Shown here piece by piece: positions 11,146-20,536 of a stretch of DNA of 64,000 bases; the first letter of the stretch is position 1, and every line of letters begins with the position of its first letter. Below the pieces are notes generated by a model. The model searched no databases and was not told where the DNA came from. It saw nothing but the letters and a program-made list of their open reading frames with translations. This DNA comes from Vulcanisaeta moutnovskia 768-28 (GTDB lineage: Archaea; Thermoproteota; Thermoprotei; Thermoproteales; Thermocladiaceae): positions 1,488,001 to 1,552,000 of the forward strand of contig NC_015151.1 in NCBI RefSeq assembly GCF_000190315.1, written 5' to 3'. The translations under genes and the position numbers were made by a program.

Positions 11146-11907
11146 ATGTCTCTTAGGGATGAGTTTTTGCGTTTGTTGAGGGAGGATGAGGTTTTTAGGC
11201 TTGCTGTTATTGGGCTTTTGGGTATCTCGGATATTCAATCTACCCTTAGGCAGTTGGTTGATGCTGTGGGTGGTTTGGCTAGGAATCAGTCAGTGATGAT
11301 GGAAACCCTGAACAAGGTCCTTGAGACAATACAAAGACTCACGGAAAACCAGGAAAAACTTTGGGAGGAGGATAATAGGATTTGGAGGGAGGTCAATGCA
11401 CTGAGGGAGGTGCAAAGCAAGATACTCGAGGAAAACAACAAGATCTGGCAGGAAATCAAGAAACTCATCGAGAACCAAGAGAAAATGTGGCAGGAAATTA
11501 GGGGACTTAGGAGGGATGTTAATGTCATTAGGAAGACCCTGGATAATATAACGGCATCCATTGATGAGGAAGCCAATGACGTTGTTACGCACCTACTTAG
11601 GGATAGAGGTGTTAACCTGAGGACTGATAGAGTTACCCTCAACTTAAGGTTTGAGTTTGATGTTTACGGTACCAATGGTCAGTTGACAATTATTGGTGAA
11701 GCGAAGAGTAGGGTTGGCCCTAGGCTCATTGCCAGGTTTGATGAGAAGGTTAATAGAGCTGTGGCTTTATTCCCTAGTAAGTTCCCTGGAAAGGTCATTA
11801 AGGTCATCTACTGCCTAAGGGCCATGCCAGGTGCCATTGAGGAGGCTGAGAGGAGGGGTATTTGGCTTATTGAGAGTATGAGGGAGAGGACGAGACCTAG
11901 TTTTTGA
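11146..11907 (+). CDS. coiled-coil protein with a PD-(D/E)XK nuclease-like C-terminal domain
   Basis: The product has 253 residues. Residues about 40-140 are a long coiled coil with near-repeated units such as ENQEKLWEE, EENNKIWQE and ENQEKMWQE. The C-terminal 110 residues hold a restriction-endonuclease-like core, with FEFDVYG (catalytic Asp) and then IIGEAKSR (E-x-K). This layout is common in crenarchaeal hypothetical families of the DUF3782 type, often present in many copies. ATG 11146 is 26 nt after a TATA-like tttttattttt. Whether it cuts DNA is unknown; the catalytic D and ExK residues are intact. Confidence 0.75.
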   Translation: MSLRDEFLRLLREDEVFRLAVIGLLGISDIQSTLRQLVDAVGGLARNQSVMMETLNKVLETIQRLTENQEKLWEEDNRIWREVNALREVQSKILEENNKIWQEIKKLIENQEKMWQEIRGLRRDVNVIRKTLDNITASIDEEANDVVTHLLRDRGVNLRTDRVTLNLRFEFDVYGTNGQLTIIGEAKSRVGPRLIARFDEKVNRAVALFPSKFPGKVIKVIYCLRAMPGAIEEAERRGIWLIESMRERTRPSF

Positions 11908-11921
11908 ATTGTCTTAGCTTA

Positions 11922-13040
11922 TTACTCCTCGGGTAGGAACCTCCTTACCACGGCGTAGTACAGGGTTATTGTGAATATTGCCGTGAATGCCAGTGTTGAT
12001 AGGAGCATTGTGTACATGGCAATTAGGGGCAGCGGTATTAATGTATTTAGTAGTTGGGTTATTGGTATGCCTGAACCACCGCTTATGAATAGGTATGGGT
12101 ACCTGGAGCCATCATTCACGTACTCCATGAGTATGAGTATTGCCTCGGCGAGGAAACCTGTGCTAATTACTACCGGCCTAACAACTCTTCCCTGCATGAC
12201 TGCGTAGAAGGCGTATAGGGCAGTAATACCCAGGGCTATGGTTAGGGCTACCGCGGCGTAAAAGGCTGGGTAGAACATGACCGAGCTAGGGTCATAACCA
12301 AGTAATGGCCCCGCAATGTTACTGGCTATGTATGGGTCGTACCTCCCAAGGACTGTGAAGTAGTAGGCCCCGGCAATTGCCTGTGGTACGAGTAGGATTA
12401 AGCCCGTGCCGAGGGCAATACTTATGCCCTTAATGCTTAGGTTCCTCCTCGTGGTCAGTACTGAGGCTATTACGAAGGCACCAATGTCCATAGCCCCAAT
12501 GAGCGTATGCACAATAAGCGGTGGGTATACTGGGTTTGAGAATACGGTCAGTGGGTTGAAGTTCGTCGTAACGTACTGCGGGTAGTCAAGACCTGCGAAT
12601 AGGTACCTGAAGCCTATGGGTACGAGTAGTACGGATATAGCCAGCGGTAAGCCAATTAGGCTGTGAGTCCTTGGACTGACCCTACCCCAGAGGTGCCAGT
12701 AAATGGCTATGAACGGTATACTCACGAGTATCCCCACCAAGGCAATGGCCACTGGGTAGAAGTAGACCCTAGTGAATATCGCGGTCATTGATGGGAATAG
12801 GCCGGCCATGAAAACCGTGAGAATAGTACCCCAGACACCGCCAAATAGCTCCGTAACAACCATTAGTCTGAACATGCTTTTGGCCACGGACTCAAGGCTC
12901 GGGTCCTGACGCAGGTAGGCCAGGTACCTGGTTATTACCGTGAGTACTGTAGCCCCAATAATCACGTTAACGAAGACTAAGTGCATCTCTAGGGCGAAGC
13001 CTAACACGGCGAATGATAGTAAGGCTAGGTAATTACTCAT
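11922..13040 (-). CDS. cytochrome bd-family oxygen reductase, CydA'-type second subunit
   Basis: The true start is probably ATG 13040 (MSNYLALLSF), which overlaps the cydA stop by 8 bp; the longer open frame would run into cydA. The 372-residue product has nine or so membrane helices. The N-terminal helix LEMHLVFVNVIIGATVL carries a histidine where CydA has its haem ligand. It therefore looks like a second CydA copy rather than CydB. Such CydAA' pairs are known from archaea such as Caldivirga. The complex would take electrons from quinol and reduce oxygen at the membrane. Confidence 0.78.
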   Translation of the reverse strand: MSNYLALLSFAVLGFALEMHLVFVNVIIGATVLTVITRYLAYLRQDPSLESVAKSMFRLMVVTELFGGVWGTILTVFMAGLFPSMTAIFTRVYFYPVAIALVGILVSIPFIAIYWHLWGRVSPRTHSLIGLPLAISVLLVPIGFRYLFAGLDYPQYVTTNFNPLTVFSNPVYPPLIVHTLIGAMDIGAFVIASVLTTRRNLSIKGISIALGTGLILLVPQAIAGAYYFTVLGRYDPYIASNIAGPLLGYDPSSVMFYPAFYAAVALTIALGITALYAFYAVMQGRVVRPVVISTGFLAEAILILMEYVNDGSRYPYLFISGGSGIPITQLLNTLIPLPLIAMYTMLLSTLAFTAIFTITLYYAVVRRFLPEE

Positions 13041-14691
13041 GTCCACCCACCTCAACCAACCCCCTAATCCTATCCAGTAGACTTGGCCTTGTGGCCACGT
13101 AGTACATGGCCAGGACCCCCACAATCGCTATAGCGAGTAGTATGGCAACCACGAAGGCCACGAAACCCGGCGTTATGGCATCACCGGTGATCACCTCGTT
13201 AGTCGTTATTAATCCATACACAGTCCACGGTTGTCGACCTATCTCCCTAGCGGCCCAGCCGGCAGTGGCTGCTATCGCCGATAGTACGGCCATTACCGAG
13301 GCTAGGAATGGCATTACGTTGTCGGCACCTATTAATACACTGAGTATTTCATTGTTTATGAAGTCTGTTATTGTGGATAGTACGGGTACCCTGACGAGGT
13401 ATGTGAATAGGACAAGTACTGAGGCTATTGCGAGTAGTATGCCGGCTCCAATCATTGTGTAGTAAAACGCACTCACCAATGGTGCCAGTGGTTCCATGGA
13501 GAGGACGGCAGCTTCACAGTTTTGGCTCAGCATCACGTTAATCAGGGGACCGAGGTAACCAAGCATACCTGGATCAAGCTTGCTGTAGAGCTCGCCGAAG
13601 GTTAAGTTGCCCAATGACCTGCACTGACTCATGTAGTACTGAAAACCATAGAGTGGGTGATATGGGTTGCCATAGGCAAACAGCGCCTCCAGTGGATCGT
13701 AGTACTCATAACCATAGATGCCCGACCCACCGGTTAATGCGGTGAATGCTGTGAACTTGAGTGGTTGGTAGGTAACAACGTCATCACCCATGAAGTGCCC
13801 AAGCACTATGGGCTCCACCAGGAGTACTATGGTGAGTATCCAGAGGAGTGGCTTCAGTAGCTTTATGTACTTATCGTCGTGGGTCCTGAAGTACCTTATT
13901 GATATGGCCAGGGCCACTGCGCCAACGCCGATTGCGTAGGCCGCGAGTAATGTGTGTAGTGTGGTCACTATGGCGTCTGGGTTTATCATTGGTAGCCATG
14001 GGTTGTTGAAGTACGTACCCACCAATGACGTGAAGTTCACACTCGTTAGCGCCAGTGAACCAGCACCATCAACTGTGTAGTGTAGAAGTAGTGCAGCTAG
14101 GTTTAATGTTGCGGTTAGGTTTGCGGCGTCTGGACCGTAGGTTGGCAAGAATGGGTATAGTGAGTGTGGTATTTCACCCATTCCCCAGGGCACGTTCATC
14201 CATGCATTTGCCGTGATTATGAAATAACCTGATAACGAACCTAGGAACCACGCAGTAATTAATACGCTGAGTGTGTACCTGGCTCTCCATCTGCCGATGG
14301 CCACCATGAAGAGGACCACGAGGACTGCCTCGCCTATGAAGGCTATGGTGGCTTCGTAGAGGAGTGGGATGAAGGCTGAGGAGGAGAAGAGTAGTATGCT
14401 AGTTGGCCAGATATCCAGTAGGCCGAACTCCACTATGGTGCCTGTGACGGCGCCGAGGGCGAAGTTCACGGCCCAAACCATGGTCAGGGTCTTGGAGTAG
14501 TTGATGAATAATGCGTCTCCGGTCCTGTACCAAGTGATGAGCCAGGCAAGTATGGCCAGTGGGAAGCCCAGTGTGAATGATACGAAGACTGCGTGTAGGT
14601 AAATGCCGATTATGGTCATGACCATTGCGTTATTAACGTTGGCGCTATGTACGTAAATCTCATTGAGTACTCCCAGTGCTGAGTTAGTCAT
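13033..14691 (-). CDS. cydA: cytochrome bd-family quinol:oxygen reductase subunit I
   Basis: The 552-residue subunit I has the helix-1 histidine (IIGIYLHAVFVSFTLG), an FGLLDIWPTS region, a long periplasmic section (about residues 300-400) in the Q-loop position, and the conserved REIGRQPWTVYGLITT motif near residue 480. These mark the CydA family. It is first in a two-gene unit with the CydA'-type subunit, overlapping by 8 bp. ATG 14691 begins MTNSALGVLNEIY. No CydB gene or cydCD is in the window, which supports a CydAA' enzyme. The haem content cannot be read from sequence. Confidence 0.88.
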   Translation of the reverse strand: MTNSALGVLNEIYVHSANVNNAMVMTIIGIYLHAVFVSFTLGFPLAILAWLITWYRTGDALFINYSKTLTMVWAVNFALGAVTGTIVEFGLLDIWPTSILLFSSSAFIPLLYEATIAFIGEAVLVVLFMVAIGRWRARYTLSVLITAWFLGSLSGYFIITANAWMNVPWGMGEIPHSLYPFLPTYGPDAANLTATLNLAALLLHYTVDGAGSLALTSVNFTSLVGTYFNNPWLPMINPDAIVTTLHTLLAAYAIGVGAVALAISIRYFRTHDDKYIKLLKPLLWILTIVLLVEPIVLGHFMGDDVVTYQPLKFTAFTALTGGSGIYGYEYYDPLEALFAYGNPYHPLYGFQYYMSQCRSLGNLTFGELYSKLDPGMLGYLGPLINVMLSQNCEAAVLSMEPLAPLVSAFYYTMIGAGILLAIASVLVLFTYLVRVPVLSTITDFINNEILSVLIGADNVMPFLASVMAVLSAIAATAGWAAREIGRQPWTVYGLITTNEVITGDAITPGFVAFVVAILLAIAIVGVLAMYYVATRPSLLDRIRGLVEVGGHE

Positions 14692-14838: not shown

Positions 14839-15819
14839 GTGACCCCAGCAAAAGTTTTTCTCTACCTAGGCTATGTATTACCCGTGAATTACTGGCTTGT
14901 CATTGTGAGGGAGAGGGTCTTCATGGGCATTGTCGAGACGGGCCTATTTGGTTGCCGTGATCCGGAGTGCGGCCTGCTAATGACTAGGGTCAAGCCCGGC
15001 ACCCGCCTAGTGCTCTTCGTAAGTGGCTTCGACTGTAAGTCCTACTGTAAGTCCTTCGTAGGGATTTTCGAAGCTGTTAATGATTGGGTTAAGGCTAGTA
15101 AGAAGTTGAATGATTGGTCCCACATGGTTGAGGTCAAGCCGATAGCCCTGGGTAGGGTTGAGCTCGGCAGCATAGCCGGCAAACTATCGTTCATTAGGGG
15201 TAGGAGGAGCATTACCGAGGCCCTACACTCCGTGGATCCATCCAACCCCAGGGCTATGCCCATGCCCGTTGAGGATGCGGAGTTGATAATTAATGAATTG
15301 AGGAGACAGGCGGTGCCTAAGCCCGTGATTGAGATTTGGGGAACCCCGAAGGGCGGCGCTGAGAGGGTGGTTGGTGGGGCAGGTGCTGAGGTTAGATTAG
15401 CGACTCAGGGCATTAATGAGGCGGTGGCGTTGTTGATGGAGGTAGCCCAATTGTTTGGTTATTACCCAGTAAGTAATGTGGATGCGGGTGAGTATAGGCT
15501 TGACCTTGCCTGGTGGGGTAATGAGGATGAGTATAGGGATGGATTGGCGCCATTAGCCGTCTTTGAGGTTGTTGATAATCCTGAGCAGGCATTGGCTAGG
15601 CTTAAGCACGCGAGGGATAGGTGGAGAGGCGTTAAGTTGTATGCCGTGGTTAGGGATGAGAATGCCGGGAAGGAGCTTGAGAGGACCTTGAGGGGCTCAT
15701 TCCATGAGCTTAGGAGGAGGGTTAAGGTATTATCACTGGGTGGGTTGAGGGATTTCGTCAAGGACCTCAGGAGGCATGGTGAGTTGGTTAGGGAATTCGT
15801 GATGCTAGATAAGGATTAA
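14839..15819 (+). CDS. EVE-like domain fused to a restriction-nuclease-like domain
   Basis: The product has up to 326 residues from GTG 14839; GTG 14884 (MNYWLVIV) is an alternative start. Residues about 16-140 resemble an EVE/PUA-like module: NYWLVIVRERV, then MGIVETGLFG and VKPGTRLVLFVSG. These domains bind modified bases. Residues about 200-320 resemble a PD-(D/E)XK fold: EYRLDLAWW, LAVFEVVD and then ALARLKHARDRWRGVKLYAVV. The expected E-x-K is E-V-V here, so the catalytic lysine is displaced or lost. EVE plus nuclease architecture suggests modification-dependent restriction; that is inference. Two other defence-type genes follow within 3 kb. Confidence 0.55.
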   Translation: MTPAKVFLYLGYVLPVNYWLVIVRERVFMGIVETGLFGCRDPECGLLMTRVKPGTRLVLFVSGFDCKSYCKSFVGIFEAVNDWVKASKKLNDWSHMVEVKPIALGRVELGSIAGKLSFIRGRRSITEALHSVDPSNPRAMPMPVEDAELIINELRRQAVPKPVIEIWGTPKGGAERVVGGAGAEVRLATQGINEAVALLMEVAQLFGYYPVSNVDAGEYRLDLAWWGNEDEYRDGLAPLAVFEVVDNPEQALARLKHARDRWRGVKLYAVVRDENAGKELERTLRGSFHELRRRVKVLSLGGLRDFVKDLRRHGELVREFVMLDKD

Positions 15820-15895
15820 GCCGCGTTGTTACCTGGTCTAAATAACCTATTGCGGGTGCGGTAATACTTATATATCGCCCTAATCGATTAATAAC

Positions 15896-17185
15896 GTGGC
15901 TGGGCAGGCAGTTGCTGAGGGGGTTAATGTTAGGGCCATGGTTGGTGGTATGCTTGGTTGGATGGTTGATGTCTTTGACCTAACCCTGGTCCTATTCATA
16001 GCCTCGGTACTGGGCATGTACTTCTTCCCACCAACAAGCCTAGTCGCCAGGCTCCTCTTCGTATTCGCCTCCTACTCACTGACCCTGCTCGCCAGGCCCC
16101 TGGGCGGTATAATATTTGGCCACATAGCCGACAGAATTGGTAGGAGGCTAACGATGATGGTCACGTTGATAGGCTTAGGCATATCCTCAGCCCTAACCGG
16201 TGCATTACCGACCTACCAACAAATTGGGTTAATGGCCACCGCACTCTTCGTGTTGCTTAGGCTCTTGGTTGGCGTGTTCGTCGGTGGTGAGGTGAGCGGC
16301 TCACACCTGGTGGCTATTGAGAGTTCGTCACCCAGGTATAGGGGCTTGGTCAGCGGCGTGATTGAAAGTGGTTATTACTGGGGCTACGCACTTGCAGCAT
16401 TCACCTTCGCCTCGCTAAGGGATTACTTTGGGACCAAGGCCTTCGTGGCCTATGGCTGGAGGTATGCCTTCCTCGTCGGCTTCGCGGTCGCCGTAATAGG
16501 CGTCCTACTGAGGCTAACAGTTGATGAACCGAGCATATACAGGGAACTGAAAAGGGCGGGCAAGGTGTCCAAGGCACCCGTTATTGAGTTCTTCAGTAGG
16601 GGCTACCGCGATGCTTTGATAGCCCTACTTCTACTCGCCGGAATCTTCTGGGTTGCCTACGCAACTCTCGGCTTTCTACCAACCTACCTAGGAACCTTCC
16701 TAAGGATTCCCCTATCCACGGTGTTCTGGGGACTGACCTACGCATCGCTCATTGGTGGTGTGATAACGATAATTGGTGGAGTATTGAGTAATGTCACGAA
16801 GAGGAAGTACGCATTCCTATACTACTCATTAATAGGTATTATACTCGCCTACCCACTAACGGCGATTTTGAGGAGTTCCTTCCTAACCCTCGTGGTTTCG
16901 GCGGGTATCCTAACCAGCGTCATTGGCACTGGCGGTGTCATGCTTGCTTACCTAGCCGAGCTATTCCCGACACGATTTAGGGGCTCGGCAATAGGCTTCC
17001 TATGGAATATGGCCTCCATAGGCGCAACGGCAGCCCTACTCACAGCCCCATTCTGGCTTAGGCTAGGCCTCGTGGTTGGCTACTCGGTAATGCTCATTGT
17101 TGGGTTTGTAATAGCGATAATAGGCACCGTAATAACCCGCGATAACACGGGCATTGAGTTAAGGAAGCTCGATGAAGTCTCGTAA
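15896..17185 (+). CDS. MFS transporter, metabolite:H+ symporter (MHS) type
   Basis: This 429-residue, 12-helix major facilitator belongs to the sugar-porter-like MHS group. It has GGMLGWMVDVFDL in helix 1, RPLGGIIFGHIADRIGRR (the MFS loop 2-3 signature) and GVFVGGEVSGSHLVAIES. The start is GTG 15896, 26 nt after the TATA box acttatatatc. It is a single-gene unit. The substrate is unknown; relatives carry small carboxylates or sugars. A closely similar carrier is encoded at 37.6-38.8 kb and a decayed one at 61.9-62.8 kb. Confidence 0.9.
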   Translation: MAGQAVAEGVNVRAMVGGMLGWMVDVFDLTLVLFIASVLGMYFFPPTSLVARLLFVFASYSLTLLARPLGGIIFGHIADRIGRRLTMMVTLIGLGISSALTGALPTYQQIGLMATALFVLLRLLVGVFVGGEVSGSHLVAIESSSPRYRGLVSGVIESGYYWGYALAAFTFASLRDYFGTKAFVAYGWRYAFLVGFAVAVIGVLLRLTVDEPSIYRELKRAGKVSKAPVIEFFSRGYRDALIALLLLAGIFWVAYATLGFLPTYLGTFLRIPLSTVFWGLTYASLIGGVITIIGGVLSNVTKRKYAFLYYSLIGIILAYPLTAILRSSFLTLVVSAGILTSVIGTGGVMLAYLAELFPTRFRGSAIGFLWNMASIGATAALLTAPFWLRLGLVVGYSVMLIVGFVIAIIGTVITRDNTGIELRKLDEVS

Positions 17186-17359
17186 ACCAGGCATGAGGGT
17201 TGTCTTAAAGTCATCGAGGTCTCGTGCCCATTTTAGTAATAATTAACTAATGGTGATTTCAATTTCTCTAGGCCAAGAACCCTAATTGACCATCACACGG
17301 CCTAACCACCTTGGAGATTTCTCGTCATACTTAAGTAGGGTAACCTATAATTACAATTA

Positions 17360-18421
17360 ATGAAGGGCGTACTCATTCATATTTGTCACAGGCTCGATGA
17401 GTGCTTAGATAGGGCTAGGGGCCTCAGTGATTTAACATTGTTTAATGCAGCGACTGGGTTTATTGATTATGATGGGTTATCGTACGTACTTAATTACCTG
17501 GGGGATATTAACGATGTTAGGGTTGTAGTCGGTAACTTGGGTCCGATACCGAGGACTATCTATGAGAGGTGGCGTGACGTGATTAGGGTATATCCAAACC
17601 TGCACACTAAACTTTACCTACTTGGTAGTGGTGTTGCCATTGTCGGTAGCGCCAATTTAACGGTTGGTGGTCTTTATGGTAATGTTGAATTGAATATTTT
17701 AATAAGAGATGGAGGACTTTATAGTCAATTAATGAGGTATTTTGAGGAATTGTGGCTTAATGCTAAGCCGCTTACTGAGGATTACGTGGAGGATGCTGAG
17801 GAGGTTGAGGTTAGGAGCACGAAGCGCAGCGCCGCTGGGTTTGTGAACGAGGTGAACAGGGCATTACTAGATATCCTGGGTGTTAATGAGGAGTGCCTTA
17901 CCACGTTTAACCCTAAGCGGTGCGCTGTAGCCGTTGCCGAGGCCATCAACAGGGGATTCCGTGATTGTAGAGACTCGCCGGAGAACTGCGTTGTTGATGC
18001 TGTTGCTGAGGAATTGAACCTAGAGGTTAAGGAATTGGCTAGGCGGTTAATTAGGGGGCCTGGCTTAACCGTTGTTGCAGGACACCCGCTATGTTGGGTT
18101 AGGACATTCATCAACCTGCTGAGGACTGGCCGTGTAAGTGTTGAGGAGTTGGATAGTGGTGTTAAGATTTATGAGGCTATGGTTAGGGAGGCGTCGCGGG
18201 AATGCCCAAGCAGGGCTGGGGAGCTTGCCCGTGATGAACTTATGAGGCTTGGTGACGAGCGTTATAGGGATGACTATGTCAGGTGGAAGATACCATATAG
18301 GTTACTGCCGCTGGCCTTGGTACTACCAATCACTGACTGTAGATTGGTTGGTATTCGCAGAAGAGATGGTAGTGCGTTGAGAAGGCTGGCCTGTAATCAG
18401 TGGGGTAGCCATAACTATTGA
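17360..18421 (+). CDS. phospholipase D-like (HKD) nuclease-family protein
   Basis: The 353-residue product has one PLD motif near residues 81-100: HTKLYLLGSGVAIVGSANLT (H-x-K, then N). Single-HKD proteins dimerise to form one active site, as in Nuc and the BfiI restriction enzyme. The 200-residue C-terminal part is helical, contains several cysteines (about ten after residue 190) and matches no family I know. ATG 17360 lies 27 nt after acttaagta. It sits between the EVE-nuclease gene and a convergent EVE gene, which suggests a defence function. Confidence 0.75.
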   Translation: MKGVLIHICHRLDECLDRARGLSDLTLFNAATGFIDYDGLSYVLNYLGDINDVRVVVGNLGPIPRTIYERWRDVIRVYPNLHTKLYLLGSGVAIVGSANLTVGGLYGNVELNILIRDGGLYSQLMRYFEELWLNAKPLTEDYVEDAEEVEVRSTKRSAAGFVNEVNRALLDILGVNEECLTTFNPKRCAVAVAEAINRGFRDCRDSPENCVVDAVAEELNLEVKELARRLIRGPGLTVVAGHPLCWVRTFINLLRTGRVSVEELDSGVKIYEAMVREASRECPSRAGELARDELMRLGDERYRDDYVRWKIPYRLLPLALVLPITDCRLVGIRRRDGSALRRLACNQWGSHNY

Positions 18422-18434
18422 TTACTTAGGGAGG

Positions 18435-18980
18435 TCACAGGCATGGTGTTATGTTTCCCATAAACTCCCTTAACTGCTTTATACAGGGGTGTCCCGGGTT
18501 TAAGTGATTAATTATGGTAACGTAATCCTCCTCCCTAATTGATATTATTGAGAATTGCATGTGGTCCTGCCAACCACCACGACCACTCCTTGCCTTATTC
18601 GTGATGAAGTATAGATTATTCAATACGAGATTGATATCCACAGCGCCTATGTGAAAGTCGTTGAGCTTCTCAATCTCTATTATTACATTAAATTTATTCT
18701 TCGGATTCCAACTCATTAACGCTGGGTGATTGGGATTCAATAAACCACTACTCCTAACTCTATAGGGCCCTAAGAACACCCTCTGGCACTTACTGGGTGC
18801 ATTGACTATACTCGTCCTCAATGATCTAACGTAGAATATTATGAAATCGCCAGGTTTCACAAGCTCCCTCGCTGTAATTCCGTACTTCTCATTATCAACG
18901 CCAAACGCACAATACTTTAAGCAAATAACAAGGTTTTGTGGATTAGTGGTAAAGACCCAATGCATGTTAGTGTTGCTCAT
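18435..18980 (-). CDS. EVE-domain protein
   Basis: The product has 181 residues; the core may start at Met6 (MHWVFTTNPQN). It shows the EVE pattern MHWVFTTNPQNLVICL, then ELVKPGDFIIFYV and an aromatic-rich C-terminal part ending before FMGNITPCL. EVE domains are PUA/YTH-like and bind modified nucleobases in DNA or RNA. It converges with the PLD gene, leaving a gap of only 13 bp. No nuclease domain is attached. A reader or toxin-antitoxin-like role is possible. Confidence 0.72.
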   Translation of the reverse strand: MSNTNMHWVFTTNPQNLVICLKYCAFGVDNEKYGITARELVKPGDFIIFYVRSLRTSIVNAPSKCQRVFLGPYRVRSSGLLNPNHPALMSWNPKNKFNVIIEIEKLNDFHIGAVDINLVLNNLYFITNKARSGRGGWQDHMQFSIISIREEDYVTIINHLNPGHPCIKQLREFMGNITPCL

Positions 18981-19788: not shown

Positions 19789-20536
19789 TCACCTCTTAAT
19801 GGCTATAATTACGAATCGCGAATCCCTGAACTTATCGAAGTCGCTAAACGATAGTGTACTGTAGATCCTAAGTATTGTAAACCCAACCTTGGGTAACATA
19901 TCCATGAAATCCTCGATGAAGTACCTCCTAACCCTCGTCCGAGACTCACCAATGAATATGAGGTTATCCCCATCCTTCCTATAAAACCTCTCATGTAAAA
20001 CGCTATACCTCGAATTATCATCCAGGTACTCCTTCACTATGCCGATTATAACCCCATATTCATAAACAATAGCCCTATTATCAATGGAGTGCAGGTGGAA
20101 GTTTGGGAAATCAATTATTAATAACCCACCATCCCTCAGATTCTCGCGGAAGTTCTTCAGCACCTCCATGTTACCCTCATCATCGAAGTAGCCAAAAGGA
20201 TGTGAACCAATTTAAAACGACATCAACTTCCCTTCCCAGTCTAAAGTTCCTCATATTGCCGATGAAGTAGTGATCCTCAAAGTCTTTGTGATTACTCCTT
20301 ACGATTTCGATTAATTCCGTTGAGATGTCTACGCCGTATACCTCATAACCGTAACCCCTAAGATACTTATGAAGTCTGCCATGCCCGCAGGGAATGTCTA
20401 GGATTGTCCTGTATTTTTCATTTAATTTCCTACCATAAAAATCAACCAACGAATGGACATAAAATGCCTCCCTCTCATTCCTCTCCTCATTCCTTAACGT
20501 CACATGCCACTTATACAGGTCAGGAATAACCATCAC
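19789..20536 (-). pseudogene. SAM-dependent methyltransferase, split by a single-base frameshift
   Basis: Two frames together encode one class I methyltransferase of about 249 residues. The 5' part has motif I ILDIPCGHGRLHKYL and YGVDIS, and stops after NWFTSFWLLR. Removing one base in the A4 run at 20194-20197 (T4 on the coding strand) gives NWFTSFGYFDDEGNMEVL, which joins the second part at 20169 without loss. It could be a recent mutation, slippage-dependent expression or a sequencing error in a homopolymer. The rest of the frame has no stops, so decay is recent if real. The substrate is unknown. Confidence 0.75.

Follow-up and report, generated by a model that had tools for sequence, protein, structure and literature searches.

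An EVE-nuclease gene of Vulcanisaeta moutnovskia, probably a detached part of a familiar type of DNA-restriction system

Do neighbouring genes for two EVE proteins, a PLD-family protein and a carrier form one system of defence against modified DNA? The question is raised by the window, that is, the whole stretch of 64,000 nucleotides that was analysed (Vulcanisaeta moutnovskia 768-28, NC_015151.1, positions 1,488,001 to 1,552,000), for which an initial annotation had proposed a possible modification-dependent defence cluster. The genome (G000) is one contig of 2,298,983 bases. All four open reading frames of the proposed cluster, including the MFS carrier in between, were found in place (Table 1); each gene is designated here by its lower coordinate, and G and L numbers stand for genomes and loci. 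In our opinion, 14839 is probably the orphaned, eroding effector of a modification-reading restriction module, lying in a small and changing defence hotspot. It resembles a leftover from an established type of DNA-restriction system more than a new system.

Table 1. Genes and residues of the EVE-nuclease locus, in window coordinates
Feature	Coordinates	Strand	Details
Cytochrome bd-type quinol oxidase subunit I gene	13033..14691	-	divergent from 14839; fixed anchor of the locus
EVE-PD(D/E)XK fusion protein, 326 aa	14839..15819	+	EVE ~16-157; weak linker ~160-187; nuclease-fold domain ~183-325
Residues of the 14839 nuclease-fold domain			E201, D222, E243, V245 in place of Gln/Lys, K256-H257
MFS metabolite/H+ symporter family	15896..17185	+	own TATA-like box; family search
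Single-motif PLD-family protein, 353 aa	17360..18421	+	HTK 82-84, GSAN 96-99, E110; Cys-containing C-terminal domain
Standalone EVE protein, 181 aa	18435..18980	-	Pfam EVE 22.9 bits; PH1033 3.4e-5

Domains and active site of 14839

The proposal depended on the N-terminal domain of 14839 being EVE. Pfam recognized residues 17-152 as such at 22.4 bits, just below the 23-bit cut-off, and at 24.4 bits, above it, in a whole-genome search; the match to PRK00809 reached 2.4e-11. An AlphaFold2 model calculated with ten homologs showed two domains of high confidence with a weak linker (residues 160-187) between them. Residues 16-155 of this model align to PH1033 (1wmm) with a Z of 17.1 and an rmsd of 2.4 over 132 residues; PH1033 and MJECL36 stand at Z ~17, followed by YTH domains at Z 12-13. 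The N-terminal domain is thus EVE, and the EVE assignment of 18435 was likewise borne out by its Pfam and PH1033 matches.

When the Pfam EVE model was run over the whole genome, only 14839 and 18435 were found. One more EVE gene came from a protein search; its product shares 72% identity with 18435, and it lies beyond the window, some 20 kb upstream of 14839. As the genome holds so few EVE genes, two of them within 4.2 kb exceed the background density. The third gene (L040 4873-5433, genome ~1,482,872-1,483,432) has a Csx1-like CARF gene (L040 2904-3938) on one side and the 23S/16S rRNA genes on the other.

Modelled alone with 39 homologs, the C-terminal domain of 14839 (C-domain) gave a pLDDT of 93.8 and a separate fold of PD-(D/E)XK-like topology. 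VIA-align placed AF1548 at the top (Z 8.7, rmsd 3.2, 105 aligned), then EndoMS and EcoT38I (both 7.6) and, in further rows, Can2 (7.5), the BspD6I small subunit (7.4) and MspJI (6.1). The leading rows are what we take to be PD-(D/E)XK nucleases, partly from their titles; the 50 rows also hold response regulators and other alpha/beta proteins, and with Z of 6-8.7 the matches are of middling strength. With Foldseek by itself no PDB match was obtained at E <= 0.001, and a PDB sequence search gave none. Among 14 family members, no C-domain matched a named Pfam family (two members match Mrr_N, seemingly in their N-terminal part). NCBIfam over 39 members returned scattered weak matches, PHROGs weak unknowns, and a viral fold library a best E of 1.5e-3, with several nucleases amid many unnamed rows. 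The family motifs follow the order R-x-D-V-x-W ... F-E-V-Q ... L-K-H-A. Because the VIA-align rows are led by nuclease-fold proteins and the motifs come in this order, the predicted PD-(D/E)XK assignment is good, though unproven, and the restriction-like domain that had been noticed fused to EVE is upheld by the model.

The active site was compared in 39 aligned C-domains, an alignment that omits a fragment (L100) and two copies (L078 and L095, of L056 and L061). Asp and Glu are present in 39/39; the third catalytic place is Gln in 26, His in 5, Glu in 3, Val in 2, Ser in 2 and Asn in 1. The His of LKHA (H257 in the window) is found in all 39, and the Lys corresponding to K256 in 34. In the window the site reads D222-E243-V245, with D222 intact. 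The five other Vulcanisaeta-type orthologs, which stand outside this alignment, were compared by tblastn; among them are G016 (V. distributa JCM 11216), G019 (V. sp. JCM 16159) and G015 (V. distributa JCM 11217), whose loci are the same as L073-L075. All six orthologs at the oxidase-linked locus have Val at the third place. The Asp is kept in the window, G016 and G019, where its codon is GAC, and is replaced by Gly in the other three (G014, G015 and G018), where the codon is GGG and is accompanied by further common neighbouring changes. In G015 an extra-base error falls in the same stretch as this codon; the replacement is also present in the single-contig genome G014. Val at the third place (ExV) also occurs in the G034 copy, which lies 7-8 kb from a DUF499 gene, and therefore is not a mark of orphaning alone.

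Decay by frameshift, for which the broken EVE-nuclease frames of G015, G016, G018 and G019 were considered, was rejected. These breaks were taken as sequencing errors, since the quinol oxidase and other household genes are broken too in those drafts. Between the window and G014, dN/dS of 14839 is 0.19 for the whole gene, ~0.14 for the EVE half and ~0.18 for the C half; the values are 0.17 for the PLD gene, 0.28 for the standalone EVE gene and 0.09 for both the MFS and the oxidase genes. Judged from these codon comparisons, 14839 is under purifying selection despite its altered metal site.

Company kept by the relatives

The C-domain family is spread over archaea and several bacterial phyla, and its N-terminal modules comprise EVE, a zinc ribbon (L018, L057) and winged-helix domains, to which the two Mrr_N matches belong. 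All nine Thermoproteales relatives away from the oxidase locus have in their vicinity either a DUF499/SNF2 system (BREX-related, Hma) or a DNA methyltransferase. In eight of them an amino-methyltransferase reading frame (motif like FDYVVGNPPW) is found within 2.5 kb, and the ninth, G034, has its EVE-nuclease close to SNF2 and DUF499 genes. A family member and DUF499 are no more than ~8 kb apart in G017, G023, G034 and G012. In G017 a 994-aa methyltransferase and then a 1037-aa DUF499 protein come after the EVE-nuclease; G023 has a zinc-ribbon nuclease gene oriented divergently from the methyltransferase and DUF499 genes; and in G012 a piece of EVE-nuclease precedes methyltransferase, DUF499 and SNF2 helicase genes, and the other side carries a zinc-ribbon nuclease and an 881-aa PLD protein. 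In G024, G081, G143, G206 and G005 the family gene stands within 2.5 kb of a methyltransferase of 466-1239 aa. The methyltransferase and SNF2 calls at single loci were made from motifs and mutual similarity, and pooled family scans agree with them.

In the pooled survey, the two genes on either side of the family member at the 39 loci (136 proteins) gave Eco57I 4, N6_Mtase 3, DUF499 2, PADLOC mad2 4 and HmaB 2. Among the PADLOC families listed for 74 more distant genes, used as a control, each was matched by 1 protein, a difference in the direction expected, and a methyltransferase-type gene was also included; the counts are pooled rather than per locus, the near and far sets are unequal in size, and the families are the first 25 listed. 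These neighbour surveys bear out the tie between the 14839 family and DNA-modification defence that the initial annotation had suspected.

The amino-methyltransferase motif was found in 0/62 reading frames of the window. DUF499 was found in 11/45 genomes from the order; the six with an oxidase-linked copy (G000, G014, G015, G016, G018 and G019) are all without it. The G017 methyltransferase, used as a single query, found no match in five of these six, G000 included, and a weak match of 43 residues in G018. In a C-domain tree of 27 chosen rows, the window and G014 copies are sister to the G034 copy (91/83) after a branch of 1.45 changes per site; the two forks that bear on the argument are supported at 84/88 and 91/83, short of full. 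From the neighbourhoods of the relatives and the placing of the window and G014 copies by that of G034, the likeliest ancestor of the solo copies is a gene that had partners.

Two further genes of the window deserve mention. A SAM methyltransferase-like gene at 19789-20536 is broken into two reading frames, and its G015 counterpart is also split, at a different place. A coiled-coil protein at 11146-11907, whose C-terminal stretch (EFDVYG...IIGEAKSR) resembles another PD-(D/E)XK nuclease, has a 38% identical counterpart that occupies the oxidase-adjacent place in G017.

These data bear on a rather unlikely alternative, namely that 14839 is a fully active modification-dependent (type IV-like) enzyme that tolerates Val, with K256 or H257 of the next helix replacing the lysine. 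The retention of D222, E243, K256 and H257 in the window and the variability of the third place across the family are consistent with it, as is the presence among the VIA-align rows of BsoBI (Z 6.6), whose entry title speaks of histidine-catalysed hydrolysis. However, the otherwise invariant Asp is Gly in half of the orthologs, the DUF499 partner has been lost and the branch is long.

We favour the reading of 14839 as an orphaned effector. Its EVE domain, from what is expected of the family, would test a flipped modified base in nucleic acid, and its PD-(D/E)XK domain would cut nearby. The ancestor, to judge from the neighbourhoods of the relatives, would have worked beside a DNA methyltransferase or a DUF499 ATPase-methyltransferase-SNF2 helicase system. 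In Vulcanisaeta-type genomes the partner would have gone, as DUF499 has, and the gene, now settled beside the quinol oxidase genes, sits on a long branch and has, by sequence, a weakened metal site. Loss of the partner, long branch and weakened metal site would together make 14839 either a weakly active type IV-like enzyme that works alone or a reader whose cut is being lost or already gone.

Gene turnover around 14839

At the six loci anchored by the quinol oxidase, the EVE-nuclease is present in 6/6, even where the other flank is rearranged. This constant adjacency could speak for 14839 being a non-defence EVE regulator of the divergent oxidase genes, tied to respiration, as could the link of some bacterial EVE proteins to cytochrome c biogenesis noted by Bell et al. 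(PMC7641849). Such a role is hardly credible: the same oxidase (69-86% identical) stands without an adjacent EVE-nuclease in G017, G020, G023 and G024, and other family members lie near DNA methyltransferases.

The remaining genes are less constant. Full-length MFS genes occur in 3/6 loci (G000, G014 and G015), with short remnants in G016 (by eye) and G019, and none was seen in the G018 locus; the MFS gene, of which two relatives keep remnants only, is a bystander. The PLD gene is found in G000, G014 and G018 (3/6) and the standalone EVE gene in G000 and G014 (2/6), while G015 keeps both flanks without either. The genes occur together in few relatives: one of the five other orthologous loci, that of G014, has the full set in conserved order, but PLD, EVE and MFS come and go separately in the others, which argues against a single defence system at the level of the cluster. 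In G014 the standalone EVE gene adjoins a pair of genes (L041 12425-13316), without counterpart in the window, which from their sequence features look HEPN-like and nucleotidyltransferase-like; G018 retains the nucleotidyltransferase-like gene.

Protein 17360 had been described as an HKD nuclease with a cysteine-rich tail. Its match to Pfam PLDc_2 (1.3e-10), its one HxK (H82, K84) and its GSxN (G96-N99) support the family, but the Asp of the HKD motif is absent from it (HTKLYLLG) and from close orthologs; from its sequence, 17360 would be a relaxed PLD-family protein only. Eight of its ten cysteines follow residue 170, in a C-terminal domain that is conserved in Thermoproteales; to the eye their spacing does not suggest a zinc finger, and C327 and C345, which form the final pair, are best kept. 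A relative in G359 (L130 8280-9401) has lost the H and K of the motif and sits in an archaeal Dpd (7-deazaguanine) island with DpdA (4.9e-75), DpdJ and a DpdK-like PLD protein. The 881-aa protein of G012 (L137 9500-12904) has a C-terminal PLD domain (DpdK/DrmC-like) and is directly upstream of the zinc-ribbon C-domain nuclease, beside the DUF499 system.

One new multi-gene defence system, in which the EVE-nuclease and the standalone EVE protein read modified DNA and recruit the PLD nuclease, is in our judgement unlikely. It would agree with the complete gene order kept in G014 and with purifying selection on the three candidate genes (dN/dS 0.17-0.28). It would also agree with the EVE-PLDc fusions described in PMC7641849 and with G211 (L136 8246-9233), where PLD and EVE occupy two frames that overlap at a tract of seven C (C7), probably a PLD-EVE fusion broken by an assembly frameshift. 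Against it stand the patchy loci described above and the relatives elsewhere: full-length PLD relatives in G351, G081, G359, G004 and G066 have no EVE alongside, and no PLD-family match adjoins the standalone EVE relatives of G024 and G012. Furthermore, inspection by eye showed a TATA-like box upstream of each of 14839, the MFS gene and the PLD gene, and of 18435 on the opposite strand, so that the promoter-like stretches are separate; 17360 and 18435 are convergent, with 13 bases between their stops.

We regard as distinctly unlikely a variant in which 14839 retains little or no nuclease activity and persists as a reader of modified bases, and the adjacent PLD protein, with or without the second EVE protein, cuts, a split defence rebuilt from BREX-related spare parts. 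A working partnership of the PLD protein with the adjacent EVE protein is possible by analogy, as such modules are fused elsewhere. With 14839 as an orphaned effector, the PLD and standalone EVE genes would be further defence-type genes of the same hotspot, each of which comes and goes alone.

Comparison with known systems

What is usefully added here is the company kept by the relatives and the loss of the metal-binding Asp in half of the orthologs; the fusion type is already published, and the function is one that we infer. Through 14839, one EVE-PD(D/E)XK family is linked to loci for methyltransferases and DUF499 (BREX-related), and the N-terminal module of this family can be exchanged (EVE, zinc ribbon or Mrr-type winged helix). 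Its members range naturally from enzymes that are intact and have partners to orphaned copies that lack the metal-binding Asp, which makes it testable what the EVE domain reads and whether a restriction domain persists as a reader after its cut is lost.

No DISARM or Dpd set was recognized among the six window proteins scanned, and neither 14839 nor 18435 matched any PADLOC family. The best PADLOC matches of the PLD domain of 17360 (residues ~75-149) are DrmC of DISARM and DpdK of Dpd; these are partial (DrmC 1.9e-9), and NCBIfam DrmC gave 30.1 bits against a cut-off of 133. The published EVE-PLDc fusions likewise combine PLD nuclease and EVE modules, as do the frames that run together in G211, whereas the window has two separate convergent genes, and 17360 carries a Cys-containing C-terminal domain instead of EVE.

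DUF499-centred systems are named BREX-related (BR) or Hma in PMC12839542; EVE proteins of the standalone type that accompany a DUF499 operon were noted by Bell et al. (PMC7641849). Relatives of 14839 adjoin the DUF499 ATPase, methyltransferase and SNF2 helicase of such systems, whereas the window genome lacks DUF499 and any match to the G017 methyltransferase (one query). No EVE-PD(D/E)XK gene is mentioned for BR loci in the passages of PMC12839542 that were consulted.

The closest likeness is with the EVE-PD(D/E)XK fusions themselves, presented by Bell, Wolf and Koonin (2020, PMC7641849) as predicted modification-dependent (type IV) restriction enzymes in which EVE would flip the base and the nuclease would cut. 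The pairing of domains and their folds are the same in 14839. Unlike the fusions as described there, the window clade has Val as third residue, lacks the Asp in half of its orthologs and stands solo beside a quinol oxidase gene.
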